Below are positions 427-64,000 of a stretch of 64,000 bases of DNA, one piece after another. The DNA is from Calliopum simillimum (Eukaryota > Arthropoda > Insecta > Diptera > Lauxaniidae): the NCBI GenBank assembly GCA_951812925.1, contig OX638368.1, positions 77,048,909 to 77,112,908 on the forward strand. Direction: 5' to 3'. Under the pieces are notes generated by a model. It was not told where the DNA came from and did not search any database. It worked only from the letters and a program-made list of their open reading frames with translations. Position 1 is the first letter of the stretch, and the number at the start of each line of letters is the position of its first letter. Position numbers and translations under genes: made by a program.

Positions 427-1172
427 ACTTTCATTTCTATAGCTTATTGTATAATTTAAATTTTTTTTCAATAAAATTTTTTACAATCTCTATTGAAATG
501 TATTGTAGGTAAATATTGCAGAGCTCACTGGTATTTTTTCATGGACAACTTTTCACTTCTCTTTTCAATATTTTTCACTGTTTGTCTCAGTAATTTTTGA
601 AGTTTAAACCGTATGTTTTACTTTCGTGCCATTACTTTTTCATGAGAATTCAGTAATTGTATAAAGGTAAGTGTACCGAATTACGGCATGTTAAGGTACT
701 CTCTACTTCTAGAACAACTCCAAGTCTTACAACTCAATTATCAGATCGGATATATAATTTTTCATAAGGATTGATAACCCCTATATTATAATAATTCTTT
801 AAACATTTAGTATCACTTCATTTATCCCTCATTCCGGTCTAAAATCTTGCGTTGAACCTAACTCCGTATGCGTGTGCACTAGGCATGCACTTATTTTACG
901 ATTTTCTGATTTTCGTTGATGCCAACCCCTGAAATCCTTCCATTGGTCATAAGAACAAACACGATGAAGTTTCACGGCAATCGGATAACGATAACCCGGC
1001 CCTCAAGAGAGGTCAAGGTCAAATTTAGCTTTCAGGCAAAAAATAATGAACATTTTTTTTAACTTAATCAAATTAGTCAAAGCATAATTTTATCTTATAG
1101 AAAATTGAAATACCTTTCTAACAAGCTATAATAGTTTTATATCGGGTAGTTAATACGAATTCTATGAATTTT
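427..1172. other. Intergenic repeat debris, no gene
   Basis: No coding signal. Around 662-685 the string GGTAAGTGTACCGAATTACGG reappears in reverse orientation, as two adjacent partial copies, near 30812-30865. This marks an uncharacterised interspersed repeat. Otherwise nothing is recognised. Confidence 0.45.
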
Positions 1173-1440
1173 CGATTTACATATAAGTCTATCAATGCAT
1201 TTTCTAACACATAATTATGACAAATCAAGGAACGGATTAAAAACACGGCTATAGTGACATATGTTTCGTCTTTCGCCACAAAGACTCATCAGACTATTTT
1301 TGTTGTAATTATAATTATATTTATTTCACTAAATTAATTATAATTGAAAAATTGCAAGTTTGAAAACTTTTTTTTTTAATCCGTTTTTTGATTTGTCATA
1401 ATTATGTGTTAGAAAATGCATTGATAGATTTATATGTAAC
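1173..1440 (-). mobile_element. Hammerhead element, family 1, copy 1 (truncated, inverted)
   Basis: The left arm carries the tail sequence plus a hammerhead on the minus strand. From about 1374 the same tail returns in plus orientation (TTTTTAATCCG, then GATTTGTCATAATTATGTG) without its ribozyme. The two halves therefore lie head to head. The tRNA-like head present in the copies near 14.5 and 15.0 kb is missing here. The tail agrees closely with those copies, so identity to family 1 is secure. The outer boundary at 1440 is approximate. Confidence 0.75.
1251..1297 (-). ncRNA. Hammerhead self-cleaving ribozyme (family 1)
   Basis: Minus-strand 47-nt motif with all core elements: CTGATGA, stem II GTCTTT/AAAGAC (6 bp) closed by loop GTGGCG, GAAA, a minimal stem III (A-U and C-G pairs, loop ATAT), cleavage triplet GTC, and stem I ATAGT/ACTAT. 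Predicted cleavage lies between 1256 and 1255. A stem III this short is known from hammerheads of Penelope-like elements and small metazoan retrozymes, where activity is often dimeric. Activity here is inferred from sequence only. Confidence 0.9.
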
Positions 1441-3034: not shown

Positions 3035-3655
3035 TAGTTGCACTAGTTTTGTCATTTTTTTTTTTTAGACGGGTATTGAGTTTTGAACTTTGAGTTGTTA
3101 TATTAAGTATTGTGATGACCTCTTTTCTGGTAAAATTTCCTTCATAAACTACAATCATTAAACTGAAGGTTTTCAGTATATCACTGACATTTAACGATTC
3201 TAGAGAATAACAATTTATGTTTTCAAAATACTCCTCAGTTCACACCGAAAGTGTGTTATAAATTGTTAATCATTATTTTTGTATGCAAAAATTACAAAAC
3301 TAATATTTTTAATATTGTAATTTAAAGTCAGTGGAAATCAATCCCTAAAGTTAGTTTTTATTTCCGTACTTTAATTCAACCTAAGTAATTGATGAAGGCT
3401 CTAATCCGACTAAAATGAAGGGGTTGCATCAAATTGAACTATACTGTGGAAGAGTACACGGAATGTAGACGAAGCAGTTAAATTTCATATTTCCAAAAGT
3501 CTTTTCAGTTGCACCGAAATTTAAGAAAACGTCACGCGGAACTCGTGTAGCGTTCTTATTTCTAGGCCTCGTTTTCAATTATTTTAAATGGAGTTCCATT
3601 AAATAAAACTTAACTATGGAAAAGCTTACAAAATGAAGTTATGAACACAGTTTAA

Positions 3656-3725
3656 CCCTTTCGACCCGGCTGGGACAATATATCCCGATTTACATTTATA
3701 TATTGTCCCAGCCGGGTCGAAAGGG
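3656..3725. mobile_element. 70-bp near-perfect hairpin, piggyBac-like MITE
   Basis: Positions 3654-3683 and 3698-3727 are 30-bp perfect inverted repeats (AACCCTTTCGACCCGGCTGG at the outer end) around a 14-nt loop. The left end is TTAA followed by CCCTTT, and the right end is AAAGGG followed by TTAT. This is what a piggyBac-type terminus with a slightly decayed TTAA duplication looks like. The assignment to piggyBac is inference from CCCT plus TTAA only. Confidence 0.55.
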
Positions 3726-5001
3726 TTATAATTTATCATTTGTTCACTTTCTAATAACTGACGAAAATTAAAATGGGAAGAATTCAATTTTTTTTTATAA
3801 AAGTTTCAATAAAAAAATTTAAATATTCGGATTTTCACTTTTTTTTTAATTTCTCAAAACTGTGACAAACTCAGTGCTTTCATAAAAATTTAGAGAATTG
3901 AAATGATTGAGGAAGTACTATAATTGATTTAAATGATTGCGATTGGTGATTCGAAGTTCGTAGAGTCAACACGGCCTTTTAAATCAAATAAAGACACTTC
4001 TCTGACAACCAAATCATAAAAAAGTAAGAAAATGTTCTTATTAGCTTAAGTTTAATTTTTAAATTTTTTCTTCTGAAATATAGGTTATTTTAAACGCCGT
4101 CCCATGACGCTTGCTGGAACCCCCCCTCCCCCCAGTGACAAAAAGTGACGCTTGCTCGAACCCCCTCCCCCCTAGAAGCGTCACGAAGTTTATGGACAGC
4201 CCCTTATCACTTTAACCTACTAAAATATAGTCATGAGAAATTTCAATGAAATAATACTACGTTTCTACCGCAAATTTTAAGAGGTGATTTACGGCTGTTT
4301 CGAGATTTAGCTTATGACGTGATCCATACAAAAATTAAATCTATTTCTGTAGGGATTTATTTTAAATCTGCGTATAAATCACATCCGGGCTACAAATTTT
4401 TGCGATTTTCGACGAAATGGCACCCATTTACTTGGCATTAAATGTAATTAAAAACAAAGCAAATCGAAGATAAGTATGAAGAAGAAAAGGAAAACCAACA
4501 TTCATACATATCAATATATGAACAATAATAAATCTTTCGGTCGGTGGAAACGGATAGGATTGAACGACTATATTTATAAATCACGTCAGAGCTAAATTTC
4601 CGGCGAAAACTTTGTATAAAGCTCACAAGATTCGGTGCCTGGTACAAGGTTTATGTAGCCAAAAGCTAAGGGAGATCGTAATCATTGCCACATTATGTTT
4701 TTTTTACTGTATTGTTTCGTTTTTTCAGTGCAACAAAATTTAAAAAAAAAACACGTTAATATAAATTGAGTAATGTGAAAAACCTGAAAAGTTACGAAAA
4801 ATGGCCAAAATACAAATTTTACTTACAAGTTACGTGAGAGGCCAAAAAGTTACGCAAAATGTATAAAATGTAACCGATTGGCAACGCTGATTGAGTGGTT
4901 ATCTTCCATGTTAGCCGTTTTTATGGAGTTCTCTCCTGACGGTTATGACACTCGTTGGTGTACATGATTTCTATGCATTTTTTTCCGAGATTTTAATTGC
5001 A

Positions 5002-8241: not shown

Positions 8242-9297
8242 TTACCAGGAACAGGGTCCTGACAGAACAAACCCAAATATGGTGTTCTGAGCTAACGGCT
8301 GGCCACTTGTGTTAGGGCACACGCCCGCTAGCATAATCCTGGGGTAGATGTCTACCCCAAGCCGGATGTGTACCGGCCCCGATTTAAAGAAGCCTGGATC
8401 GGCTAGCTTAAAATTCACGAACGGCTCTTGAGCCCTTGCGTCAAGAGTGCGCGGGGGAGTCACCAGCTCGCACCTTGCGTCAACGACCGCCATGACATCA
8501 ATGGCCATGCTCGTGTCATTCCTCGCCCGTAGCTGCAACGCACACACCTCTTCACCGTCAAAGTGAGAGGTATGCAACCGCCATCTCCTAACCAAAGACC
8601 CAGAAATCAGAGTCTTTGGTGAGCATGCGTCCAATAACGCACGCTCCGTTACAAGGCGCCCAGGCACCATGACCCGCATCAACACCGTGGGTAAAAGTGT
8701 TACCAAGCGTTGAAGTGTCAGCGCAGAAAGTGTTGCGGGGGGAGGCAGCGTAGGGATATGTGCCCTAGTCGAGGACGCATTTGGCCCTGACCGCGGCCTC
8801 TGCCGGGACCCCGTATTCGATCCCTGAAGCGCTGGCTGACCACGGTGATGACTGAGATAGTCTCGCTGTGCCTTTGCCTTGCGACCCGCTCTCCGTCTTT
8901 GGGACCTTCTGGAAGAGGAGGACCGTCGAGAACGTCCCCGAGTGGGTGAGTGCAGAAGAGTGTGGTGATCATCACCACAGTGGTGACATCTTCCGGTGCT
9001 TCGGCAGCCCTGGCGCAAGTGACCTGAGGACAGGCAATTGGAGCAATATCCATTACTGAATACTGCCCTCAATCGCCCCTCAAGGTTCTTGTCCAGGAAC
9101 TGACGACACCCCGCAAGACCATGCTCTAACGAGCACAAACAGCATTTCGTTTGACGTGGCACTTGTACCACCACACTTCTCACCACATCCGGAGAACGCT
9201 CGCGAACAGTCTCGGGTTCACTAAATTGAACCTCGGATTCTGTCTGGATATTCAATTCTTCCAGAAGATCGCCAGCGATGGAGGAGGTAGAAGACAT
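8242..9297 (-). CDS. BEL gag zinc-knuckle region fused to protease
   Basis: A 351-codon open frame from the ATG at 9297 (MSSTSSIAGDLLEEL). The large capsid region of a normal BEL Gag is absent: after about 50 residues the frame enters the cysteine/histidine-rich nucleic-acid-binding part (CCLCSLEHGLAGC, CSNCLSSGHLRQGC, CHHCGDDHHTLLH). An Arg/Ser-rich linker follows, then a retropepsin-like segment with LLDACSPKTLIS where the family usually has a D-x-G-S active site; the Gly position is Cys, so activity is doubtful. The frame ends with a stop after FGFVLSGPCSW, where RT would normally begin. Base composition is clearly more GC-rich than the surroundings. Confidence 0.8.
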   Translation of the reverse strand: MSSTSSIAGDLLEELNIQTESEVQFSEPETVRERSPDVVRSVVVQVPRQTKCCLCSLEHGLAGCRQFLDKNLEGRLRAVFSNGYCSNCLSSGHLRQGCRSTGRCHHCGDDHHTLLHSPTRGRSRRSSSSRRSQRRRAGRKAKAQRDYLSHHRGQPALQGSNTGSRQRPRSGPNASSTRAHIPTLPPPATLSALTLQRLVTLLPTVLMRVMVPGRLVTERALLDACSPKTLISGSLVRRWRLHTSHFDGEEVCALQLRARNDTSMAIDVMAVVDARCELVTPPRTLDARAQEPFVNFKLADPGFFKSGPVHIRLGVDIYPRIMLAGVCPNTSGQPLAQNTIFGFVLSGPCSW

Positions 9298-9350
9298 TCT
9301 GAAACGAGACAAAAGATGCTATTTTAAAGGGAAAAAAAGTGATTTTGGTT

Positions 9351-10688
9351 TTATGCCGCTGGGAGCACGACAAGCTTTATAATTGGTCGCGTGATGCAAC
9401 CACGCTCGGTTCGGATGTCCGCGACGCGTGTACGATTATCGTTACCGGGATAAGTTTTGATTACCCTACCTAACCGCCACTCATTTGATGGTAAATTCTC
9501 CTCTTTAACGACAACTAAATCATTAATGCAAATATCTTTTTGAGGAGACTTCCACTTAACTCGCCTATGTAACTCAGTTAAGTATTAACTTTTCCATCTC
9601 TGGCAAAAGTGTTGTTGCATTGCTTTGACTTTTTGCCATCGGTTGACAATTTTCAAAGGCTGTTCTTCAATTTCAGGCTCAGCTGTAGATAACAGCGGCC
9701 TGCCGACCAAAAAATGGCCAGGAGTAAGTGGCTGAAAATCATTTGGATCTTCCGACATGGCGTTAAGTGGGCGCGAACTAAGGCAAGATTCGATACGACT
9801 TAGCAAAGTGAGAAATTCTTCGAAGGTATAACTCATAGCTCCGGCCATCTTTTTGAAATGGCTCTTGAAACTTTTAACCCCAGCTTCCCACAATCCTCCC
9901 ATATGGGGAGCATCAACGGGAATGAAATGCCAAGAGATCTCTTGATGAGCATATTGTGCCTGCACGATGTCCTTGGATTGGTTTAGAAAATCCTTAAATT
10001 CTCTTGTAAGCACCTTTGAAGCTCCTACGAAGTTGGTGCCATTGTCCGAATAAACCTTTGCTGGACAACCACGACGAGCGACAAATCGCATAAACGCTGC
10101 CAAAAAGGTAGCTGAAAAAAGATCGCTAGTGGCTTCCAAATGAACTGCTTTTGTGGAAAAACAGACAAAAGGGCAGACATAGCCCTTAGTAATTCGACAG
10201 GCTCTACCCAGGTAGCTCTTTATATCGAACGGACCAGCAAAATCAACGCCGGTAGACGAAAAAGGGCGTGACAAAACAGTTCGCTCTGGTGGAAGAGCTG
10301 CCATTATTCGTGATCTTAACTGTTTTTTGTGTGTAACACAAGTTTTACAATTGAATAAAGTAGTTTTTATGAGGTTTTTTGCACGTGGGATCCAATATTG
10401 CGTTCGAATAAGACGAAGCATTAGTTGATTCCCTCCATGAAGTGAATCTTCATGAATAAATCGTACTAAAAGCCGAGTAAAATGACAATTGTATGGCAAT
10501 ATAACTGGAAATCTTTCATCGTAAGTAAGTGAAGGTGAAGAGGCTAACCGCCCACCAACACGCAAAAGTGCATCTGTGTACAGAAACGGATTTAGAGATA
10601 ATAGCTCACTTTTAGGACCAAGGATTTGCTTGGTCTCAAGTTTGTGGTACTCCTCCGAAAAATTTACTTTTTGACACAACAAAATCAA
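9351..10688 (-). pseudogene. BEL pol: pre-integrase and integrase, one internal stop
   Basis: This minus-strand frame has no ATG; it opens right after the 5' LTR and primer-site region. In order it shows the pre-integrase segment (LLRVGGRLAS), an HHCC zinc region (EDSLHGG to FNCKTC), and the integrase core with D in STGVDFAGPF, D in VYSDNGTNF and E in GGLWEAGVK. A C-terminal domain ending PIIKLVVLPAA follows. One in-frame TAA at 9585-9587 interrupts it between RWKS and YLTELH; reading then continues cleanly to the natural TAA at 9351-9353. Everything upstream in a normal pol is absent. An intact integrase core next to a single stop fits a recently dead copy. Confidence 0.85.
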
Positions 10689-10702
10689 GCTCGAAGGACC
10701 AA

Positions 10703-10988
10703 TGAATAATTCCGGGGGAATTTGAGGGGGAAAAAACTAAACTTTTAAAAACTTATTAAAAAACTTAAAAAAGGCGGAAAAGAAATAAAACTCGCGGAGT
10801 TCGAAATTTAGGTAACTTTATTGCTTCATCGACATGAGAACAATGTCGTTTTCAAAAAGGGAGCGAGAAGCGCTGCCCACACATGAATTAAAGAAGAAGA
10901 AGGAAGAAGGAAAAACATAGAAAAAAACTTTAACGACTAGAATAAACACCCTGTGCCCGCACAGCTGTGTTTATTGCTGGTGTTAACA
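10703..10988 (-). repeat. BEL 5' LTR
   Basis: 286 bp, same length as its partner at 7840-8125. On the minus strand it is followed by TTGGTCCTTCGAGC, the probable primer-binding region, and then directly by the integrase half of pol. Confidence 0.9.
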
Positions 10989-11351: not shown

Positions 11352-12870
11352 TTAGATGGGTGACGAGCGTTGTTAAAAGATTTACTACATTAGACACTTG
11401 TTGCATTAATTGTTTCATCATGTCTCTTAGTTCAGCAAGTTCTGATTGTTTAGTTTGATTATCTAGGGTGGGGTGAGGCGCTACCGATTCAGCATAGGTC
11501 TTAGGTCATGCACTATAGGCCTGAGTTGATACTGCAGGTGCACTGTTTTTGGACGTTGTTGGTTGTTCAGGTTGAGTTCCCTTGGTTTCATTATTCTTAC
11601 TTCTAAGGGCAGGAAAGCGATAAATTTTTAGAATTTTGTACAATTTGCACCCTTTGTAGTTAGCCGTATGGTTTTCTATACGCACTTTACATTGTTATTC
11701 TTACCGTGTAGTTGGCAATTAATTGTTTTATGATCACCTGCGCATTTTACAAACACAGGTTTTTTTATGCAAACATTTTTTGTGTGGCCGTATTTTTGAC
11801 AATTGGTTCATTGTGGGATCGTTCGTTTCTAATGCGGAGCTTCAAATGTGAGTATACAGTGCACTAGGATTGATATTTTGTAGATATCTTTAATATTTTC
11901 ATTATCTTTCAATTCGATGGAGAATAGATTCAAAGGGTGTTTTTTGATCGACTGTAGTACGTTTTGTATGTTTATGACTTCGAGTCCTAATTCGTATAAT
12001 TCTTTTTTGATTTCATCTTTATCGGCAGAGTGATGCATTTCACGAAGGAAAATTTTGAAGCCTTTCTCTTCTTTCGGCTTGTATGTGTAAAATTCTACCT
12101 GTTTTTCTTTCAAAAATTTTACTGTGCAAGTATAATCTGTGCTTTCATAAGGTTGTATTTTTATTTCATCATTTTGTAATACGCGAATTTCATATTTTGA
12201 TACTTCTAAAGCACCTACAGTTTTTACGAGGTTGTCCAACTGTTTCACTTTTTGTACATAAATAGGTGGTGATTTTTTTCCTCTGCCAATTTTACTGTCT
12301 TTTGAATTGTTGTTTTTAGTATTGTTAACATTCACATTCTTATTGACAGCTTCTTTTGTTTTGTTATTGTCATTTTTATTGTTTTTGACAGTTTCTTCGT
12401 TATCTTCGGTTGAGAGAAGTTTGCAAATCTATTTGATGCTAAGAAGTAATCATTTAATGTATTTTGCTTTTCTGCCTGTTTGTGCTTTTTCACGCTTTGT
12501 TCATCATTTCTCTTATTGGGCGAAGTTCGGTTTCTCTTACTTGCTGATGGTGAGTTAGTAGAATTGTTAGATTTTATATGAGATGTGCATGCAGCTGAGC
12601 TGCTTTGTGATGCAATAGCCGGCGTCATTCTAGGCTGCGTCGTGGCGGCTGTATATGTAGTTGTTGTTGTTGATGCTAGTGTGGTGATTTTCGAATTTGA
12701 AGTAAATGGTGTAGCAGAAGTTGCATTTGTAGGAATTGCTGCCGTTGTAAAAACGCTGTGTTGTGATGACCGGATCGGTGGGATTCGGAACGATGAATTA
12801 CTAGGTGCACTTGAAACTCTATTCGATGTATCAAGTAACAGTATCTTCCAACAGGACAACAATATAAAGC
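11334..12870 (-). pseudogene. Jockey-type ORF1 (nucleic-acid-binding Gag-like), frameshifted
   Basis: Two long frames on the minus strand meet near 12335. The upstream part is Ser/Thr/Asn-rich and low complexity. The next contains the Jockey ORF1 signature KSPPIYVQKVKQLDN and the RNA-binding region with FLREMHHSADKDEIKK. Downstream, in shifted frames around 11660-11830, are zinc-knuckle remnants (CQKYGHTKNVC, VKCAGDHKTINC and a YKGC-type end). The final Ser/Gln-rich tail ends LNGSNK and overlaps the ORF2 start codon. The 5' limit is uncertain because a different repeat begins near 12870. Several frameshifts mark it as dead. Confidence 0.8.
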
Positions 12871-13250
12871 CTAGCACCGTTCGCGAGTCGGCAAAATTTT
12901 GCCAACGAACCGACTCGACTAAACCTTTCATAGCATGGTTAACGAATGTGTTAATTTGCCGAGTCGGATAAAATTCGTTCGCCACAAACGCTTAAGTCCG
13001 TCGAATGAAAAATGTATGTGACAACTTAACGAATACATCAGACTTGGATAAATAACTCAAAAAATCAAGCATAAATTGCACAAGTTATTTTATGCAAATA
13101 AAAATATGCAAATAAAAAGATGCAGCAGCAAATGCAATAGACAGGCAGACGTTCTTGTTTAGTAAACTCGTTACTTTTGTTTTGCTTTGACGTAAGACAG
13201 ATTTATTTTATTTTATTTTTATTTTATTTATTTAAGAATTTTTTAAGAGT
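12871..13250. repeat. Interspersed repeats upstream of the Jockey element
   Basis: The 12880-12970 part carries GCCGAGTCGG-type palindromic text that also occurs at 26600-26905. The 12995-13190 part (GTATGTGACAACTTAA, then ATGCAAATAAAAAGATGC) recurs at 17966-18180 and partly at 23425-23520. A (TTTTA)n tract at 13200-13240 precedes the hammerhead element. No coding potential. Confidence 0.55.
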
Positions 13251-13401
13251 GTTACTTAATGACATTTTATATTGAAAATTGATTTTATTTAATTGAACTT
13301 TTAGTCATATATTTGCAAAGATCGATTTACATATAAATCTATCAATGCATTTTTCTAACACATAATTATGACAAATCAAGGAACGGATTAAAAACACGGC
13401 T

Positions 13402-13448
13402 ATAGTGACATATGTTTCGTCTTTCGCCACAAAGACTCATCAGACTAT
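13402..13448 (-). ncRNA. Hammerhead self-cleaving ribozyme (family 1)
   Basis: Same 47-nt motif as at 1251-1297 with every core and stem base conserved. Predicted cleavage between 13407 and 13406. The cleaved unit up to copy 3 would be 534 nt if the piggyBac relic were absent. Confidence 0.9.
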
Positions 13449-13483
13449 TTTTGTTGTAATTATAATTATATTTATTTTATTAA

Positions 13484-14459
13484 CACTCAAATCCACATCA
13501 TGGGTAAAATTTACCCATGCGAAGTTTGTTTTCGTAATAATTCGCTAAAAAACGAACAAAAAAACGAAGTAAGCGCATGTAAATTACTTCACTGTATTCT
13601 CCTTTTGTTGTGGGCTTTGTCGCAAGCGGTCGTCGTCTGTTGTCGGAGGTATAGCGTTTTAATTTTTTTTTCGGGTAAATTTTACCCATGTTGTGGACTT
13701 ATGTAAGTTTTTTTTTTTCGTTTTGATTGAAAATAGTGAAAAATGGCACGTAAAAGAGTAAAACATGACGACGAAATAATTAGAATTTTGAAAAACATTG
13801 AATTCTCGTTGTTTTAGCCAAAGTTAAAAAGCAGATACCAAATCACACAACTTCGAAAAAGTTTGAAGGAGCTTATAATGAAAATTTTTCGTACTTTTAG
13901 TCCACTCTGAAAACAACCAATGTTGTACTAGAAATACTTGTCAGATGTTTCTAATGTCCGGCAAAAAAAGACCGAAAAACTAAAAACCTTTAAATTTGAT
14001 GTAAAAACCTTTTTGCTCTGAGCATAGGGCTATGATTTGCAGTACATGCACATCCTTATTTGTTTTATTTTTTTGGTACATTTTTATGAGCTTGTATAAA
14101 AAATTTTGAAATGTTATTTAATTGAATTGATAATAATATAAAAATAGTTTATTTTATTTATATAAAAAATGTATTTTGTTACAAAAAACATTAAGTTTTT
14201 TTTTTGTGTTTCAAAAAATTGCCAATGAATTAATGTTAAAATTATTTATTTTCAAAGTTTTCTTAAAATATATGTAAAAAACAACAGATATGACTTATTT
14301 TCCTTTCAATTCACCTTGGTATTAGATTGTTAAAGTAGAAATAACTAAGTTTCGTTAAAAATTTGGGATATTGACCAAAACAGAATGTTTTTAAGTTATG
14401 GGTAAAATTTACCCATGATGTGGACTTGTGATGCTAAAAATATGTTGGGGAGATGAGGG
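13484..14459 (+). mobile_element. piggyBac-like element, internally deleted, with TTAA duplication
   Basis: Flanked by TTAA at 13480-13483 and 14460-14463. Ends are CACTCA on the left and CCCTCA (inverted) on the right. A subterminal inverted repeat TCCACATCATGGGTAAA occurs at both ends, and palindromic GGGTAAAWTTTACCC occurs three times. A plus-strand start at 13743 (MARKRVKHDDEIIRILKN, then a stop after six more codons) looks like a transposase N-terminus. Around 13935-14065 decayed text RCF, CPAKKDRKTKN and spaced Cys codons resembles the C-terminal cysteine-rich domain of piggyBac transposases. The middle of the gene is deleted. Confidence 0.75.
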
Positions 14460-14511
14460 TTAAATTAATTATAATTGAAAAATTGCAAGCTTGAAAACTT
14501 TTTGTGTTTTT

Positions 14512-14583
14512 GGTCTGGGCGGGAGACGAACCAAGGATCTCCAGGTTGGTAGCAGGAGTCGTTACCACTGCACCAGCCTTGCC
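14512..14583 (-). promoter_or_regulatory. tRNA-like Pol III promoter head of hammerhead element
   Basis: On the minus strand GGCTGGTGCAGTGGTAACGA gives a good A-box (TGGTGCAGTGG), and GGTTCGTCTCC is a near-consensus B-box about 35 nt later. The segment resembles a degenerate tRNA, but the anticodon arm does not fold with a 7-nt loop, so it is not a tRNA gene. It lies upstream of the hammerhead of copy 2 on the same strand. Confidence 0.7.
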
Positions 14584-14915
14584 CGGCTGCGAAGCCGACT
14601 TTTTGCCAGTTTTATTTGTGTGTTAATACGTATTGATATATCATAATTGTTGTTTTGTGTTATTTATTGATATTTGGTATAGTTGTTCCTTTGGAACAAA
14701 TTCAATACCGATTGCAGGTGTTTCCACCTTATCAGGGCGTGTTTTCCCAAATAACTTTAAGTGTGTTACTTAATGACATTTTATATTGAAAATTGATTTT
14801 ATTTAATTGAACTTTTAGTCATATATTTGCAAAGATCGATTTACATATAAATCTATCAATGCATTTTTCTAACACATAATTATGACAAATCAAGGAACGG
14901 ATTAAAAACACGGCT

Positions 14916-14962
14916 ATAGTGACATATGTTTCGTCTTTCGCCACAAAGACTCATCAGACTAT
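14916..14962 (-). ncRNA. Hammerhead self-cleaving ribozyme (family 1)
   Basis: Identical motif to the other family 1 copies; predicted cleavage between 14921 and 14920. Confidence 0.9.
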
Positions 14963-14992
14963 TTTTGTTGTAATTATAATTATATTTGTCAT

Positions 14993-15061
14993 AAGGCTGG
15001 TGCAGTGGTAACGACTTCTGCTACCAACCTAGAGATCCTTGGTTCGTCTCCCGCCCAGACC
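14993..15061 (+). promoter_or_regulatory. tRNA-like Pol III promoter head (plus copy)
   Basis: Plus-strand counterpart of 14512-14583: A-box TGGTGCAGTGG at 14999-15009 and B-box GGTTCGTCTCC at 15041-15051, differing at two or three positions from copy 2. The hammerhead starts about 85 nt downstream. Confidence 0.7.
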
Positions 15062-15144
15062 AAAAACACAAAAAGTTTTCAAACTTGCAATTTTTCAATT
15101 ATAATTAATTTAATAAAATAAATATAATTATAATTACAACAAAA

Positions 15145-15191
15145 ATAGTCTGATGAGTCTTTGTGGCGAAAGACGAAACATATGTCACTAT
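15145..15191 (+). ncRNA. Hammerhead self-cleaving ribozyme (family 1)
   Basis: Plus-strand copy used to define the fold. Stem I ATAGT (15145-15149) with ACTAT (15187-15191); core CTGATGA 15150-15156; stem II 15157-15162 with 15169-15174; loop GTGGCG 15163-15168; GAAA 15175-15178; stem III ACATATGT 15178-15185; cleavage after C15186. Confidence 0.92.
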
Positions 15192-15317
15192 AGCCGTGTT
15201 TTTAATCCGTTCCTTGATTTGTCATAATTATGTGTTAGAAAAATGCATTGATAGATTTATATGTAAATCGATCTTTGCAAATATATGACTAAAAGTTCAA
15301 TTAAATAAAATCAATTT

Positions 15318-17965
15318 TATTTATTTATTACGACTTACACGAGCCTAGTTCTATTCGCTTGAATTTAATATGACAAAGTATAATATATGAAAAAAAAATT
15401 ACAATATATAAAGAACATAATAATAAAAAATTTACATAACTAATCAACCCTCGAAACATGTGCCACTCACTATTCACTGCTCAGGATTTATCGGATCTCT
15501 AGTGATTTAGCATAATTATAAAGTTTATTTTTAAATAAGTTACTATCACAGTTTTTAATACTTTCAGGTAATTCATTATAGGATTTCAATCCTTTGTAAG
15601 ACAGACTATTTTTTTCAGCCTCTGTTTTATAAAGAGGCAACTTAAAGTTATTTCTACTTCTGGTGTATCTATCATGTACCTCATAATTAAATTGAATGTT
15701 ATTCATTAAGTAATCTGGTAAATGGCCATTCTTAATGTTATGTATAAACTTCATTGTGAAAAAGAAAATTTGTTGTTTTATACTTAGCCAGTTAAGGCTG
15801 CGTAACATTTCCTTAATTGACGTATCATATGGTTTTTTATATATAAACCGCATAGCTTTATTTTGCATTTTTTGAAGCTTATCAATTTGGGAATCTTTCA
15901 TGATGAAAAAAATAGTGGGACAGTATATAAAGTGTGGCTCCACAATAGACCTGTATACCTTTTCTTCGTAAAATTTACTTAATTCCTTGCAAGTTCTTTT
16001 TATGAACCAATTTTTTTTGCAATTTTGCTAATGGTGTAGTCGATGTGTTCATCAAATTTTAATTTTTCATCTATTTGAATGCCTAAATATTTAATGTTTT
16101 GTACTTTTGCAATTTCTTTATGACTAATTTTAATGGAACCCACGTTAATATTGTTCTTTCTTGTAATAATCATATATTTGGTTTTATCTATATTAATTTT
16201 TAATTTGTTAGCACACAACCACGCATATAGAGCATCGAGGTCAGATTGTAGTTTTTCTCTCAAAACATTTTCATTTTTTCCACATACTGAAATTAATGCA
16301 TCATCAGCAAATAGTTTAATAGAGCTAGATTTTAAGACGAATATGATATTATTAATATAGATATTGAATAATATTGGAGCCAAAACTGAACCTTGAGGAA
16401 GACCAATGTCAACAGCAAGCTCTTCCGAAATAGCAGAACCAATTGATGTACACTGCTTACGATTACTTAAAAAAATTTCAAACCATCTCAATTCCGTATT
16501 TCTGATACCTATAATTGAAAGTTTTTCTAGAAGTGTTTTTCTATCTATTGTTTCGAAAGCTCTCTTAAGATCAATAAAAACTGCTATTATAATATTTTTA
16601 TTATTTAGTTCTTCTTTCCATTCAGCCATAACCATATTTAAAGCTGTTTCAGAAGAGTGTTTTTGTCTAAATCCGGATCCGCTTTTAATGTATTTTTTAC
16701 TTTTTCAATTGGGACTATAACCGAAGTTTTCCAAATACTTGGTACTATACCTGTACTTAAGCTTTCATTTATGATTTGAGCATAAAAAAACCCAAATACG
16801 GCATTAAATCTTTAAGAACACCTTCAGACAATAATTTTCTCCCACCTCTTTTTGCTTTAAATTTATTAACTATTGTTTCGATATCACTGGAAGTTACTGG
16901 ACTAAATTCTAATCTATAATTTACTGGAGTTATAAAACTCAAGTCTCTATGAATTAGTGCTATACTGTTGTTAATATTCACAATACTATCAACAAAAAAC
17001 TTATTTAAACCGTTCGCTATTTCTAATTCGCTCATAAAAATTCTACCATCAATGATTATTTTTTTTATAGGTGTATTTTCATTCACCATGCAAATTGCAT
17101 GTTTAAGATACTTCCACATCTTTTTACTATCTTGACTATTGCTAGTTATTTTGTATTCCAAATGTTTTACTTTTTTAAATCTTAATAGTTTTTTGTAAGA
17201 CTGTTTTACGTTTTTGTACTCTTGCCAGTTTCCCGATACTTGCGCCAGCTTATAAAGTTCAAACATATATTTGTTCAGATTGGCTAACTCGTGATCGTAC
17301 CATTTATTCATAATTTTTAATTTAATTTCTTTTTCATGGGTTAAATTTTTCATGATATTCAGAACAGTGTCATTAATTACCCATACTTTACTTTCTAAGT
17401 CAAGCGCATCAAGATTGCTAAAGTTGCACAAACGAAGTTGGTTTAAAAGTGCTTCAGTATTATAAAATTCCCATGAAAGTATTTTAATAGTGCTCCTCAT
17501 TTGGAATTTGGGGTCCCGTTTAATTGTAAATTGAATCGTTTCATGATCTGATATTTGATATTCTTCTAACTTTTTACACATTACATCATTAGAATTAGAA
17601 AACAGTAAATCAATTTTTGTTTTGGACGAATCGGTTATACGGGTATCAAAATCAATTTTTCGGGACATCGAATGTGACTGAAACAGTTCAGATAATTTGG
17701 TGCTATACGTCGAAATTTTGTTAAAATTGATGTTAAAATCACCTACGATAATATTACAGTCAGATAATTCGCATGTATTACCTACTATAACACATTACTT
17801 AAATAGTTAATAAAATTTGCATCACTTGAACTGAGTGAATGATACACTACTCCAAGTTGCCATTTAGGTTTAACGTTTTTCAATTTAATGAAGATACACC
17901 AGATCAGTGCAGTGTTGAAATTTAAAAAAAGAATTGGAGGGATTTTTTGTATCACAAATGCAAAT
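15318..17965 (-). pseudogene. Non-LTR retrotransposon, CR1/Jockey-superfamily type, 5' truncated
   Basis: Minus-strand ORF in pieces. The endonuclease C-terminus has WQLGVVYHSLSSSDANF, NIIVGDFNINF and ISDHETIQF (17570-17880, one frameshift). A linker follows to the RT entry. RT has VFIDLKRAFETIDR, GLPQGSVLAPILFN and the catalytic FADD (near 16310). The C-terminal domain has LQKMQNKAMRFIYKKP and YNELPESIKN and ends at 15488-15490. A short deletion between 16640 and 16720 removes the RT segment before SGFRQKHSSE, and other frameshifts are present. The 3' end is AAATA-rich near 15318. Clade within the CR1/L2/Jockey group not resolved. Confidence 0.85.
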
Positions 17966-40457: not shown

Positions 40458-41522
40458 ATGGATAACAACACAGTCCAACAAATGAACCTAATGATCACGT
40501 GTATAGGTCACATAAAAGACTTCGACGGGACGGATTCAAATTTATTACCAGATTTTATTAAGCAAATTGAAAATATTTTACCAGCTTTTAATAACTTTGA
40601 TAAGACATTGAAACTTATTCTTTTAGATTATATAAAAAATAAATGCGTTGGAAAGTGTAGAGAAGCTTTGCATCGTGAACATAGTACAGAAACTTGGGAA
40701 CAGGTAAAAGATACTCTAAAGAAGAATTTTGGTGAAAAAGAAACTGTTGTAGAACTTATGGACAAATTAAAGACAGTTACACTTAACGGTACCATAGAAA
40801 ATTTTTTCTATATAATTCAAAAATTTGCTAATAGAATAATAAATAGACTAATGACACATAATGAAGATCTTTACTCAATTGAAGACATAAATAGAATTTC
40901 ATTAAAAGTTTTCAAAGATCATTTACCAGAACCAACTAAGACAATGATAATAACGAGAAATCCTCATAGTTTGACAGAAGCTTTTAAAATCATATCTGAA
41001 GCTAGACATCAGGGGTACACTCAATATGGTCCTCCCCAACATAAACCAACAGGTAATCAATTCTCACGCCTCAATTTTAGCGACAATTGTAACAATTATT
41101 ATGGAAATAAAAAACCAAATTATAACTCTAACAAGCAAAACCAAAATGGTAATAATTATTTCAGAAATCAAAATGATCAGTATAGTAGTCAGCAACAAGT
41201 GAAAACTTATGATAGGCAACAACACTATGATTGCAACAACACCAGTTATAATAGACCACAAACTTATGGTAACAACAACACTAATTATAATAGATCACAA
41301 TATTATGATAACAACAACACTCGTTACAATAGACCACAAAACTCTTACTACAATCAAAATGAAAACGTTTCTCAAAATACACGTCATACTTACAATAATC
41401 AAAATTTAGGAAATGCAAATAGAAGCACACAATCCAAAAGATCAAATGAACATGAACCAATGGACGTTAATAATACACAATCGGATTTTTTAGAACAAGC
41501 CCCAAGAAACTTCCTTACATAA
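40458..41522 (+). CDS. gypsy gag
   Basis: 354 codons from ATG 40458. Residues 1-200 have the fold-like pattern of retrotransposon Gag capsid (IKDFDGTDSNLLPDFIKQIE, then YIKNKCVGKCREAL and TWEQVKDTLKKNFG). Residues about 205-330 are an Asn/Tyr/Gln-rich region with repeats of the form YDNNNT-YNRPQ. No CCHC zinc knuckle is present, so RNA packaging must rely on something else, perhaps the Asn-rich tail. The end overlaps the pol frame, and a slippery heptamer lies 30 nt before the stop. The only upstream ORF start competitors are short. Frame intact. Confidence 0.9.
   Translation: MDNNTVQQMNLMITCIGHIKDFDGTDSNLLPDFIKQIENILPAFNNFDKTLKLILLDYIKNKCVGKCREALHREHSTETWEQVKDTLKKNFGEKETVVELMDKLKTVTLNGTIENFFYIIQKFANRIINRLMTHNEDLYSIEDINRISLKVFKDHLPEPTKTMIITRNPHSLTEAFKIISEARHQGYTQYGPPQHKPTGNQFSRLNFSDNCNNYYGNKKPNYNSNKQNQNGNNYFRNQNDQYSSQQQVKTYDRQQHYDCNNTSYNRPQTYGNNNTNYNRSQYYDNNNTRYNRPQNSYYNQNENVSQNTRHTYNNQNLGNANRSTQSKRSNEHEPMDVNNTQSDFLEQAPRNFLT
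41486..41492 (+). promoter_or_regulatory. Probable -1 ribosomal frameshift site
   Basis: In the gag frame the bases read GAT TTT TTA, giving the heptamer T TTT TTA, a canonical X-XXY-YYZ slippery site. Pol is in the -1 frame, which is open from 41474, so slippage here would fuse gag to protease. I did not identify a downstream pseudoknot. Confidence 0.7.
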
Positions 41523-44500
41523 AATTAAGACGAGGTAACGATTCATTTTATTTAGTTATTGATACAGGCGCAGAATTTAGCATTATAAAACCAGGCGTTT
41601 GTGATCCTAAATGGAGAATAAAAGTTAACGCAGAAGTTAAAGCGTTTGGTAATATTTACAAAAGCAATTACGTCTATAGATTCCCACTATTTAAGGAATT
41701 CGGTTCATTTAATCCCCATAAAAATTGTGAATTTTTGGAATTCAATTTTCATCAAAAATTTGACGGCCTTATTGGTAACAACATCCTTGATGATATCAAA
41801 TGCACTATTGATTACCCAAATAGAAAATTAATTACAACAAATGCAGAAGTACCTTTTTTCATTTGCAAGGAAGAAGAAGAGTATTATGAACAATTGCATA
41901 GTGAAAAAAATTTCGAAATCTTAAATTGTGAAACTAAAGAAATTAAAAATGACAATAGTAATTTAAATAATTTTGAAAAAAGTCAGTTATTAAAAATACA
42001 AAAGAAACATGCAATTGTATTTTATAATGAAGATAGCAATCTTACATTTACTAATGATATTAAACATAAAATAAAAACTAAAAATGATATTCCAATATAT
42101 AGCAAATCTTATAGATACCCAGAAATACATAAAGCAGAAGTTAATAAGCAAATCGATGAAATGCTAAAGCAAAACATTATTAGAGAGTCTCATAGTCCTT
42201 ACAATAGTCCAATATGGATAGTTCCTAAGAAAGCAGATAATACAGGTAAGCAGAAATGGAGAGTTGTAGTCGATTATAGAAAATTAAACGAAAATACTGT
42301 AGAAGACAGATTCCCTATCCCCAATATAGAAGACATATTTGATAAGCTCGGAAAATGCCAATATTTCACAACGTTAGACTTAGCCAAAGGGTTTCACCAA
42401 ATTGAAATGGACCCAGATGATGTTTCTAAAACAGAGTTTTCGACAACACATGGACATTATGAGTTTCTGCGAATGCCATTTGGTCTAAAGAATGCCCCGG
42501 CAACCTTCCAGAGGCTCATGAATAGCGTACTAAAAGAATACATTGGAAAAATTTGTTTAGTGTATCTAGACGATATTATTATATTTTCAACAAGTATCGA
42601 AGAGCATCTTGATTCTCTTGATAAAATTTTTAAATGTCTTAATCGTGCAAATTTAAAAGTACAATTTCAAAAATGTAAGTTCATGGCTAAAGAAACAGAA
42701 TTCTTAGGTCATATAGTTACAGCAGACGGTATAAAAACAAACCCTAACAAAGTAGAAACTATAAAAAAAATTCCTTTGCCTAAAAATCAAAAAGAAATTA
42801 AATCATTCTTAGGTATCACGGGGTACTACAGACGATTTATTAAAGATTATTCGAAGATAGCGTACCATCTTATAAAATATCTAAAGAAGGATATTAAAGT
42901 AAATATAAAGGATAAAGATTTTATAGAAGCGTTTCAAAAATTAAAAACACTACTCCAAAGTGATCCTATACTCACCCATCCTGATTTTACAAAACAATTT
43001 GTTTTAATTACCGACGCTAGCAATTTTGCATTAGGAGCGGTTTTAATGCAAAATAACAAAACCATTGCGTATGCAAGTAGAACTTTAAACCAACATGAAA
43101 AGCATTATTCTACCATAGAAAAAGAATTATTAGCAATAGTGTGGGCTGCGAAGTATTTTAGGCCATACTTATTCGGTCGCAAATTTATTATAAAAACAGA
43201 TCACAGACCGCTTGTCTGGCTAAATAATTTAAAAGAACCCAATAGTAAACTACAGCGATGGAAGATTAAACTTAATGAATTTGACTTCGATATTATTCAT
43301 ATTAAAGGTAATGAAAACGTTGTTGCAGATGGACTTAGCAGAATAAATTTTGATGCAATAAACGAAAATACTCAAAATTCCAATACTTGCGAAAATAAAA
43401 GACAAAATCAATTGACAGACGGACTTAGCAGAATAAGCCCAGTCACGATAAATGAAACTATTCAAGAAATAAACATGAACGAACACATTGAAGTTCCAAT
43501 GTCAACAGGAACCATTCATAGTGCAGAAAGCGATAGCACAAATTTTATAAAAATATCAGAAAAACCACTTAACTTATTCAAAACACAAATAATAGTTGAT
43601 TATTCACAGAATACATCAAATAAAAAGTCGGTACTATATAAAAACACAATAAGACATACAATTTTAATAAAACCAGAAAATAATCTTTTGCAAATCATGC
43701 AGGACACTCTTCCTTCTAAAGGACTAATTGCTATTTTTATTCCTAACTTAGAATTGTTTTTGAAATTTCAAAACCTTTATATTAAATACTTTGCACAAAA
43801 TAAAAATTTGAAAATATTAAAATCCAATTTATTTATAGAAGACGTAACAGACAAAGAAGTTTTGCTACAGAAAATAGAAGAAAGCCATCTTAAAAATAAT
43901 CATAGAGGCATAAATGAGACATTCAAAGAATTGAAAACGTCTATCTATTATCCAAACTTACAAGAGCAAGTACATAAATTCATAAATAATTGCGAAATTT
44001 GCAATTTAGCTAAATTTGACCGAAATCCAATGCAACATAAGCTTAATTTAACAGAAACTCCTAAAAGACATAATGAAATAGTTCATATTGACATTTGGTA
44101 TCCGTTACGAAACACAATGTATCTAACAACTATAGATAAACTAACTAAATATGCCACAGTGTATTGTTTAGATGATAGAACTTGGATTTCTATAATTAAA
44201 GCAATAAAACAAAGAATACAGTACTTAGGGAAACCCGAAAAAATTGTAACTGACAATGAGCTAGATACAAAAACAATTAGAGAATTTTTTAAGGATAACA
44301 ATATAGAAGTTCATTATACGACCCCTTATAACAAAACTGGCAACGCAGACGTTGAACGCTTACACCAAACCTTGAACGAACACTTACGAATCTTTCATGC
44401 AGACCAAAATAATACTGATAGCTTAGACGAAAAAATATATTAAGCCATAATGTTTTATAATGCGACAATTCATTCAACTACTGAAAAAAGACCAATAGAT

Positions 44501-62225: not shown

Positions 62226-62345
62226 CAAATTATACTAATTTTATGAACTTTAGTCAATGTTTTGCAAGAATCGAAAATTCCATGCATTTTCCAACTTAGA
62301 ATATTATGACAATTAGGAGAAGAGAAAAAACTACTGAACATGGCT

Positions 62346-62393
62346 ATGGTGACATATGTTTCGGTTACCGCCACGTAACCATCATCAGACCAA
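62346..62393 (-). ncRNA. Hammerhead ribozyme (family 2)
   Basis: Minus strand: stem I TTGGT with ACCAT (4 pairs), core CTGATGA plus one extra T, stem II GGTTAC/GTAACC, loop GTGGCG, GAAA, stem III ACATATGT, cleavage after GTC between 62351 and 62350. The extra residue between A9 and stem II matches the position tolerated in the plus hammerhead of chrysanthemum chlorotic mottle viroid. Confidence 0.8.
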
Positions 62394-62874
62394 TTTATGT
62401 TTTATTTAATTTATTTTAAATTAAATGAAATAACAATTGAAAAATTTTTGAACTTTTTGTCTGAGGCTGGGATCAATCTATGAACCTTTCGAAATCAATC
62501 TCTCTACATAGCGCATTTATCAACGGAATGCGCTGTGTGCCCTCGGAAAAATTGGTAGCTTAAGTGCCTATATGCAAGTAGCGTGGTTTCATTCTCTATA
62601 CTCCTTTGTCATCATTCATGTTGTGTTTGTTTGGTAAGGCTCAGCCATTGGCTGAGAATCAATACCGTTATATTATATGACTGACAAGTGTTGCCAGTTG
62701 CACATATTTGGCGTTTTCTCCATGATTACTTAAAATGGTTTATGTTGACTATATGAAAATTATACTAATTTTATGAACTTTAGTCAATGTTTTGCAAGAA
62801 TCGAAAATTCCATGCATTTTCCAACTTAGAATATTATGACAATTAGGAGAAGAGAAAAACTACTGAACATGGCT

Positions 62875-62922
62875 ATGGTGACATATGTTTCGGTTACCGC
62901 CACGTAACCATCATCAGACCAA
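62875..62922 (-). ncRNA. Hammerhead ribozyme (family 2)
   Basis: Same motif as 62346-62393 with no difference in the core or stems; predicted cleavage between 62880 and 62879. Confidence 0.8.
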
Positions 62923-63355
62923 TTTATGTTTTATTTAATTTATTTTAAATTAAATGAAATAACAATTGAAAAATTTTTGAACTTTTTGTCTGAGGCTGGG
63001 ATCGATCTATGAACCTTTCGAAATCAATCTCTCTACATAGCGCATTTATCAACGGACTGCGCTGTGTGCCCTCGGAAAAATTGGTAGCTTAAGTGCCTAT
63101 ATGCATGTAGCGTGGTAAACAAACACAACATGAATGATGACAAAGGAGTATAGAGAATGAAACCACGCTACATGCATATAGGCACTTAAGCTACCAATTT
63201 TTCCGAGGGCACACAGCGCAGTCCGTTGATAAATGCGCTATGTAGAGAGATTGATTTCGAAAGGTTCATAGATCGATCCCAGCCTCAGACAAAAAGTTCA
63301 AAAATTTTTCAATTGTTATTTCATTTAATTTAAAATAAATTAAATAAAACATAAA

Positions 63356-63403
63356 TTGGTCTGATGATGGTTACGTGGCGGTAACCGAAACATATGTCAC
63401 CAT
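63356..63403 (+). ncRNA. Hammerhead ribozyme (family 2)
   Basis: Plus strand; predicted cleavage after C63398. With the next copy it would release a 530-nt monomer. Confidence 0.8.
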
Positions 63404-63885
63404 AGCCATGTTCAGTAGTTTTTTCTCTTCTCCTAATTGTCATAATATTCTAAGTTGGAAAATGCATGGAATTTTCGATTCTTGCAAAACATTGACTAAA
63501 GTTCATAAAATTAGTATAATTTTCATATAGTCAACATAAACCATTTTAAGTAATCATGGAGAACACGCCAAATATGTGCAACTGGCAACACTTGTCAGTC
63601 ATATAATATAACGGTATTGATTCTCAGCCAATGGCTGAGCCTTACCAAACAAACACAACATGAATGATGACAAAGGAGTATAGAGAATGAAACCACGCTA
63701 CATGCATATAGGCACTTAAGCTACCAATTTTTCCGAGGGCACACAGCGCAGTCCGTTGATAAATGCGCTATGTAGAGAGATTGATTTCGAAAGGTTCATA
63801 GATCGATCCCAGCCTCAGACAAAAAGTTCAAAAATTTTTCAATTGTTATTTCATTTAATTTAAAATAAATTAAATAAAACATAAA

Positions 63886-63933
63886 TTGGTCTGATGATGG
63901 TTACGTGGCGGTAACCGAAACATATGTCACCAT
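63886..63933 (+). ncRNA. Hammerhead ribozyme (family 2)
   Basis: Plus strand; predicted cleavage after C63928. Core and stems as in the other three family 2 copies. Confidence 0.8.
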
Positions 63934-64000
63934 AGCCATGTTCAGTAGTTTTTTCTCTTCTCCTAATTGTCATAATATTCTAAGTTGGAAAATGCATGGA

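Follow-up and report, generated by a model that had tools for sequence, protein, structure and literature searches.

The window (the whole 64,000-nt stretch of DNA that was analysed) carries two families of tandem repeats with hammerhead ribozymes, F1 and F2. These repeats are likely to be non-autonomous, protein-less animal retrozymes that combine a canonical type I hammerhead with a tRNA-derived segment and are inserted by the machinery of Penelope-like elements (PLEs). As read from the sequence, this explanation is based on covarying hammerhead stems, tandem units without open reading frames (ORFs), target-site duplications, two fixed outer ends and resident PLEs with reverse transcriptase (RT) and GIY-YIG domains. 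The two-site ends, the duplications, the AT-rich targets and the resident PLEs together point to a non-autonomous element that would be moved by a Penelope enzyme.

The window contains eight type I hammerheads, F1 and F2 contributing four each (Table 1), and all of them carry the CTGATGA...GAAA...GTC core. Both families are identical in loop II (GTGGCG), in the TAGCC of the stem I loop and in helix III (ACATATGT), which consists of two pairs and a palindromic tetraloop. Between F1 and F2, pairing is retained by compensatory changes, from GTCTTT/AAAGAC to GGTTAC/GTAACC in stem II and from ATAGT/ACTAT to a shorter TGGT/ACCA in stem I. Furthermore, the F2 hammerhead has one additional T between the core and stem II, which is why a descriptor of stems I, II and III misses the F2 copies. 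The matches of this descriptor in the window are the four F1 copies and one unrelated site at 16307, within a LINE reverse transcriptase. No descriptor match was obtained in 300 Markov-simulated windows, a control that, given the unrelated match, understates chance in real sequence. Genome-wide, the pattern CTGATGAN{8,26}CGAAACATATGTCA has 1480 + 1473 exact matches (2,953 together) and the reversed-pattern control 0 + 0, which bears out the hammerheads called in the sequence-only reading of this DNA. The viral contigs scanned for the hammerhead motif gave no match.

The sequence-only reading had named the lack of a hammerhead score above threshold as an outcome that would speak against the ribozyme, and an Rfam search of the window indeed gave no match at the gathering score. 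The RF00008 (type III) matches in the window are weak and out of register, for which reason a type III reading was rejected. An in-register match to RF00163 (Hammerhead_1) was obtained on four tandem copies in locus L024, with 21.5 bits versus a cut-off of 34. Minimum free energy (MFE) folding prefers another fold for the isolated F2 hammerhead and gives a result no better than shuffles for F1 (z 0.72), short three-way cores being poorly judged by MFE. In our view, covariation, copy number and conservation outweigh the sub-cut-off Rfam scores for the identity of these predicted hammerheads. Within F1 unit positions 1-322, the hammerhead is the least changed part, with 6 of the 84 substitutions in ~4,630 of 22,444 aligned bases versus 78 in ~17,814 bases elsewhere (binomial p 0.001, a rough value given the dependence among copies within an array; each position is covered by ~60-79 copies from the fetched loci). 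A single substitution, at the cut site, was found in the 13 core positions checked (68-69 copies), and the core residues thus do not vary at random, which had been named as another outcome against the ribozyme. Unit positions 323-553 change more, but are not comparable with positions 1-322, because the loci were chosen with a search query that covered the latter part.

The main F1 insertion in the window runs from ~13235 to 15318, between the copies of a 14-nt flanking repeat, and consists of a minus-strand tandem array, interrupted by a nested insert, and a plus-strand arm placed head to head with it. The two head-to-head arms form a 199-nt perfect inverted repeat (14789-14987/15120-15318). 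The span of 14764-15317 assigned to the element in the sequence-only reading does lie within this insertion, but takes in only part of it. By its TTAA target, the nested insert is presumably piggyBac-like. The F1 unit is 528 nt long in the window copy and 545-553 nt in two other arrays, while the F2 unit has 530 nt. The longest Met ORF in three tandem units has 61 aa in F1 and 40 aa in F2. With a GC content of 0.315 (F1) and 0.343 (F2), both families are AT-rich and lie below the limit of 45-50% GC that is used for retrozymes. A tandem unit with a retrozyme-like organisation, as originally proposed, is real. The window also contains coding stretches at 41474-44443, 8242-10736 and 15488-17794, which we take to be Gypsy-like, BEL-like and LINE-like, respectively, and domain matches to RVT_1 (16000-16704) and PRE_C2HC (11829-12428). 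The latter domain, with what is known of its family, was the sole ground for assigning the host to the arthropods. The inverted repeat at 3642-3738 matches several Rfam miRNA models. Such miRNA matches, at 63083-63195 and 3642-3738, were rejected, as both are located on inverted repeats, the former being the head-to-head centre of the F2 insertion.

Table 1. Coordinates of the F1 and F2 insertions and of their predicted features in the window.
Feature	Position	Strand	Remarks
Target-site duplication, left copy	13221-13234	.	ATTTTATTTATTTA; identical to 15314-15327; low complexity, exact length uncertain
Target-site duplication, right copy	15314-15327	.	Identical to 13221-13234
F1 array, last unit	13235-13483	-	Hammerhead and 3' part; outer end at ~unit 363 (site 2, A-run)
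Nested insertion, 976 bp, not part of F1	13484-14459	.	TTAA duplication 13480-13483, 14460-14463; related GGGTAAAATTTACCC inverted ends
F1 unit, 528 nt	14460-14987	-	Hammerhead, 3' part, spacer, tRNA-like head, linker
F1 plus arm, 326 nt	14993-15318	+	Outer end at unit 326 (site 1, AATTTT)
tRNA-like head, minus unit	14517-14580	-	A-box 14575-14565, B-box 14532-14522
tRNA-like head, plus arm (arm begins here)	14993-15056	+	A-box 14998-15008, B-box 15041-15051
GC-rich hairpin CGGCTTCGCAGCCG	14584-14597	-	Directly upstream of head; possible reverse-transcription stop
T-runs TTTT (15076) and TTTTT (15091)	15076-15095	+	Between F1 head and hammerhead; potential Pol III terminators
Hammerhead type I, F1	13393-13455	-	Motif and descriptor; motif start 13443
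Hammerhead type I, F1	14907-14969	-	Motif and descriptor; motif start 14957; weak RF00008 match
Hammerhead type I, F1	15138-15200	+	Motif and descriptor; motif start 15150; predicted cleavage 15186/15187
Second F1 insertion, rearranged, head-to-head	1172-1439	.	Carries hammerhead 1242-1304 (-)
Hammerhead type I, F1, in second F1 insertion	1242-1304	-	Motif and descriptor; motif start 1292
F2 insertion, (-)(-)(+)(+)	62227-64000	.	Reaches ~64078, beyond the window; outer ends at F2 unit 323 and 349; 14-nt shared flank
Candidate F2 tRNA-like head, doubtful	63214-63279	+	A-like CAGCGCAGTCCG (1 mismatch) and exact B-core GATCGATCC; 57 nt between their starts
Hammerhead type I, F2	62337-62401	-	Motif; motif start 62388
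Hammerhead type I, F2	62866-62930	-	Motif; motif start 62917
Hammerhead type I, F2	63348-63412	+	Motif; motif start 63361
Hammerhead type I, F2	63878-63942	+	Motif; motif start 63891

The outer ends of the insertions fall at two internal sites of the unit. Of the 22 two-armed F1 insertions, 20 have one outer end within unit 320-338 and the second within 362-386, and in nine of the ten F2 insertions one lies at 315-331 and one at 348-356. Each site is thus used by one end in 29/32 two-armed insertions, the exceptions being L021 and L030 (F1) and L065 (F2), with site windows that were defined after the ends had been seen. Site 1 of F1 is located at ~326, after AATTTT, and site 2 at ~363-385, after or within an A-run and TTCTTA. 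The F2 sites are located at ~323 and 349, and both sites look homologous between the families when compared by eye. The F1 loci are the 40 best-scored of 1475 candidates plus L067, and the F2 loci were hand-picked, including nine extra regions from the 100 matches listed. Excluded from the counts were L020, an apparent duplicate of L004, and overlapping loci of one array. L036, L042 and the window insertion at 1172-1439 were too rearranged to class, and five single-arm F1 insertions (L034, L039, L041, L043 and L044) stand outside the two-armed table, in which L032 was counted despite an unmatched internal gap of 263 nt.

The longest string common to both flanks has a mean length of 12.1 nt in 28 insertions (27 F1, 1 F2) versus 6.3 nt in 756 mismatched pairs. 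It reaches at least 9 nt in 23 of these 28 insertions, compared to 7.1% of the control pairs, and stays below 9 nt in five; duplications in the nine extra F2 regions were judged by eye only. The flanks are 80% A+T. Head-to-head centres were read in 14 cases, of which ten show 0-4 nt of microhomology, three a filler of 3-5 nt and one an overlap of 11 nt. L003 has an 11-nt overlap at its central junction (466|204), which it shares with L067, a separate F1 insertion. Since the outer ends lie apart from the hammerhead cut (F1 unit 194/195), they are not explained by a linear self-cleaved monomer copied from its 3' end.

This pattern corresponds to the published behaviour of PLEs. In a lizard Penelope element, reverse transcription is described as starting internally at two adjacent sites, with both target strands being cleaved and extended at AT-rich targets, and the segment between the two start sites forms an optional 'tail' of 30-40 bp (PMC11167929, accessible text). 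Rotifer Penelope copies are described with inverted pLTRs, one of which can carry a 31-bp optional tail, with duplications of 8-10 bp and with head-to-head palindromes (PMC3846280, accessible text). As far as these texts extend, F1 and F2 have in common with PLEs the inverted arms, the optional tail between two start sites, the short duplications, the AT-rich targets and a hammerhead upstream of the reverse-transcription start sites. The accessible text of the lizard study reports no start-site difference between strands and does not contain a rule of one site per arm. F1 and F2 differ from PLEs in that they have no ORF, in that their hammerhead is canonical instead of minimal and in that tandem units make up the whole element. 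As the F1 units hold no Met ORF above the length given above, F1 is not an autonomous PLE.

PLEs are resident in the same genome. At least 51 GIY-YIG matches were found at E <= 0.001, with 150 of 209 candidates scored; a few of the matches, on small contigs, may be bacterial. The GIY-YIG matches at C104:11024 and C183:63226 lie in open frames of 612-622 aa and are possibly bacterial and UvrC-like. Two near-identical PLE copies (L046 and L047) carry an 841-aa open frame, which in the one scanned matches both RVT_1 and GIY-YIG. By eye, L047 has a duplication of 12 nt, and its arms end at two sites separated by ~25-31 nt; L046 is without the two-site pattern, the outer end of its inverted arm corresponding to a point inside the ORF. 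Motif matches that were read as minimal hammerheads are present at nine of 11 Penelope-side loci (L046-L056, without L049 and L051), with the extra T of F2 in all but L054. Comparison of F1 and F2 with the PLE sequences fetched gave no similarity beyond short weak matches and no partner family. A long F1 match in L049 (C118:46500-48100) belongs to a tandem satellite, F3, with a tRNA-like head, an F1-like linker and a broken hammerhead, which lies beside a fragment of a Penelope ORF.

In the proposed mechanism, a tandem RNA would be provided by an array transcript, or by a circle arising from hammerhead cleavage and ligation, and would be bound by a PLE protein. An AT-rich target would then be cut on both strands, and each cut strand would prime reverse transcription at one of the two internal sites, which lie ~125-190 nt 3' of the ribozyme cut. 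Both cDNAs would finally meet head to head, often via a few matching bases.

Two other routes of spread have to be weighed against insertion by PLE machinery. An element mobilised by a LINE through target-primed reverse transcription, with inversions produced by twin priming, would likewise be expected to show the shared flanks, which measure 9-19 nt in 23/28 insertions, and the A-run before one end also fits. In twin priming, the inverted part lies upstream of the direct part and the outer end is variable. The arms analysed here, however, overlap in their unit positions, and their outer ends keep to two fixed internal sites in all but three of the two-armed insertions, so that LINE mobilisation appears rather unlikely. 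A plain satellite DNA that is spread by recombination and in which the hammerhead is a fossil would agree with the long homogeneous terminal arrays of a further family, F4, that is described below. F1 and F2 are instead interspersed, with shared flanks in the manner of target duplications and a conserved ribozyme core, and for them this alternative is considered highly improbable; for F4 it may apply.

The second component of the unit is a tRNA-like head, which in F1 starts 152 nt upstream of the hammerhead core on the same strand. It contains an exact A-box (TGGTGCAGTGG) and a near-exact B-box (GGTTCGTCTCC) at a spacing of 43, the single B-box mismatch to GGTTCGANTCC falling on the conserved A. 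Equally good pairs of A- and B-boxes were encountered four times in 400 simulated windows, counting both strands. ARAGORN reports no tRNA in the window at default settings and a degenerate 'tRNA-???' in the F1 head at an 80% threshold, a call also obtained for 6 of 200 shuffles. The tRNA covariance model of Rfam, a check that the sequence-only reading had also put forward, gave no match with an E-value of up to 10 in 14400-15330, L049 or L024. The F4 head has an exact B-box and an A-box with one mismatch at a spacing of 44, and the F3 head (L049) has an exact B-box at a spacing of 52 to the best A-box. ARAGORN gives no tRNA for the candidate F2 head at thresholds of 50-100%. Among the first 22 exact heads listed on scaffold C1, 19 are followed by an exact hammerhead-pattern match 142-155 nt downstream, in line with the claim that the head precedes the ribozyme on its strand. 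Because of the tRNA-like spacing of the boxes and this linkage to the hammerhead, the head is probably tRNA-derived and integral to the unit. It is probably a captured tRNA gene or the end of a SINE, and may serve as an aid to transcription or as a structural domain.

The original proposal was a Pol III retrozyme, in which the head would be a working promoter that drives transcription through the hammerhead, with multimers that self-cleave and circularise. The box spacing in F1 and F4, the exact F4 B-box with its nearly intact A-box and the linkage of head and ribozyme in 19/22 places are in its favour, as are the F1 arm 5' ends at the head start (unit 550-3; 4/46 tabulated ends, namely in the window, L011, L040 and L041). 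The head and the ribozyme are, however, separated by T-runs in the four families seen: four plus five T in F1 and F3, five in F4 and one TTTTT in F2. A TTTTT is also present at 15199, just past the F1 ribozyme. Metazoan Pol III transcription usually terminates at such T-runs, and a Pol III transcript is therefore expected to end before the ribozyme. In addition, the F1 B-box is altered at its conserved A, a tRNA covariance match is missing in the regions searched and the F2 head is barely tRNA-like. The F1 substitution rates (0.0042 for the head, 0.0053 for the linker, 0.0039 for the post-ribozyme part and 0.0013 for the hammerhead) show a head that is no better conserved than its surroundings. 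The arm 5' ends as a mark of Pol III initiation are weakened by the GC hairpin that adjoins the head and by a second cluster of 5' ends at unit 455-475 (7/41), as reverse-transcription stops can explain the ends at the head. The list of inner ends does not include L032, L036 and L042, nor one of the ends of L037. Acting as a Pol III promoter with read-through of the ribozyme is thus not the best-supported role of the head, and the Pol III mechanism is unlikely. Head and ribozyme could also be unrelated, if a tRNA-SINE had inserted by chance into a hammerhead satellite, and between F1 and F3 the head does seem more diverged than the adjacent linker in an alignment judged by eye. The head nevertheless occupies the same place in F1, F3 and F4 and is followed in each by a similar linker, the F2 unit is of similar length and heads without an exact hammerhead are few (3/22 listed), which makes such a nested SINE quite improbable.

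The additional family F4 has hammerhead repeat units of 385-410 nt, in which head and ribozyme are arranged as in F1. Its hammerhead variant has 232 exact matches in the genome; the 100 matches listed are all located at most 25 kb from a scaffold end, and so are 68/68 on C1-C3, for which the list is complete, although this terminal position rests on the assembly order of the scaffolds, which could be wrong. A 24-nt string of the F4 head has 187 matches; 99 of the 100 that are listed have a terminal position, the exception being at C4:40.4 Mb. F4 reaches the last base at six of the ten ends of C1-C5 (the C1 start, both C3 ends, the C4 end and both C5 ends), and the last 1 kb of the other four ends is free of F1, F2 and F4 matches. 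In the terminal arrays, read at L057 (C1:1-3600), L071, L072, L074, L075 and L076, the 5' side points outward at 6/6 ends (two-sided p 0.03 if the ends are independent, which they may not be). By eye, three inner array borders, at the C1 start, the C3 start and the C4 end (L057 3534-3586, L078 and L079), end at the equivalent of site 1 and are then followed by the same subtelomere-like flank. This shared border is explained equally well by one ancestral insertion that was exchanged between ends and by reverse transcription that extended the ends repeatedly. Five TTAGG units are matched 36,512 times in the genome, overlaps included, by which the reading of a host without TTAGG was rejected; the 100 matches listed are all in one interstitial array at C1:4.6 Mb (L077, C1:4599144 onwards). 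In the outermost 1-3.6 kb that were read at the ten scaffold ends, TTAGGTTAGG is absent. It is conceivable, if on the unlikely side, that a tRNA-headed hammerhead retrozyme, Penelope-copied from circular or multimeric RNA at two internal sites, had its F4 branch recruited to oriented terminal arrays, as a reverse-transcribed, ribozyme-bearing telomere or subtelomere repeat.

Among known systems, F1 and F2 agree with the metazoan non-LTR retrozymes as described in the accessible text of Cervera and de la Pena (2020, PMC7229834), with a type I hammerhead, a short helix III with a palindromic tetraloop, AT-rich non-coding tandem units and target duplications, and insects are among the hosts. The F1 and F2 units are longer than the ~170-400 nt given there for animal retrozyme RNAs, with F4 at the limit, but unit size is a soft feature, as the same text also gives repeats of 150-450 bp. 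That part of the source makes no mention of head-to-head arms that have two fixed ends. The combination of a SINE-like segment with a hammerhead had been presented as novel in the sequence-only reading, which overstated the case: schistosome SMalpha and Sjalpha are termed SINE-like retroposons with a hammerhead (Ferbeyre 1998; Laha 2000; both as cited in the accessible text of PMC8490949). Going by that text, these are the nearest published hammerhead SINE-like elements, and they resemble F1 in being described as SINE-like with a type I hammerhead; the same portion contains no Penelope insertion signature. The pDo500 satellite of Dolichopoda cave crickets is likewise an insect hammerhead satellite, with a unit of ~500 bp going by its name (PMC2837043; PMC2808323; accessible texts), and the terms tRNA, SINE, polymerase III and promoter are absent from the accessible portion of PMC2837043. 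A search of mainly open-access literature, with subscription papers mostly outside its reach, returned in the texts available no tRNA-headed retrozyme, no Penelope insertion signature in retrozymes and no hammerhead repeat at chromosome ends.

According to the accessible text of PMC7761336, retrozyme repeats show no motif that reveals their mobilising partner, and in that of PMC7229834 PLEs are named as a strong candidate for mobilising animal retrozymes. The F1/F2 repeat may show what moves animal ribozyme repeats, as insertion ends fixed at two internal sites, one per arm, would open the PLE hypothesis to direct testing in genomes and to a simple biochemical assay. If the use of one site per arm holds in an unbiased sample, it would limit the ways in which a PLE dimer can use its RNA. 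The terminal F4 arrays would be striking if the scaffold ends correspond to telomeres or subtelomeres, in which case ribozyme repeats may be part of the chromosome-end structure.
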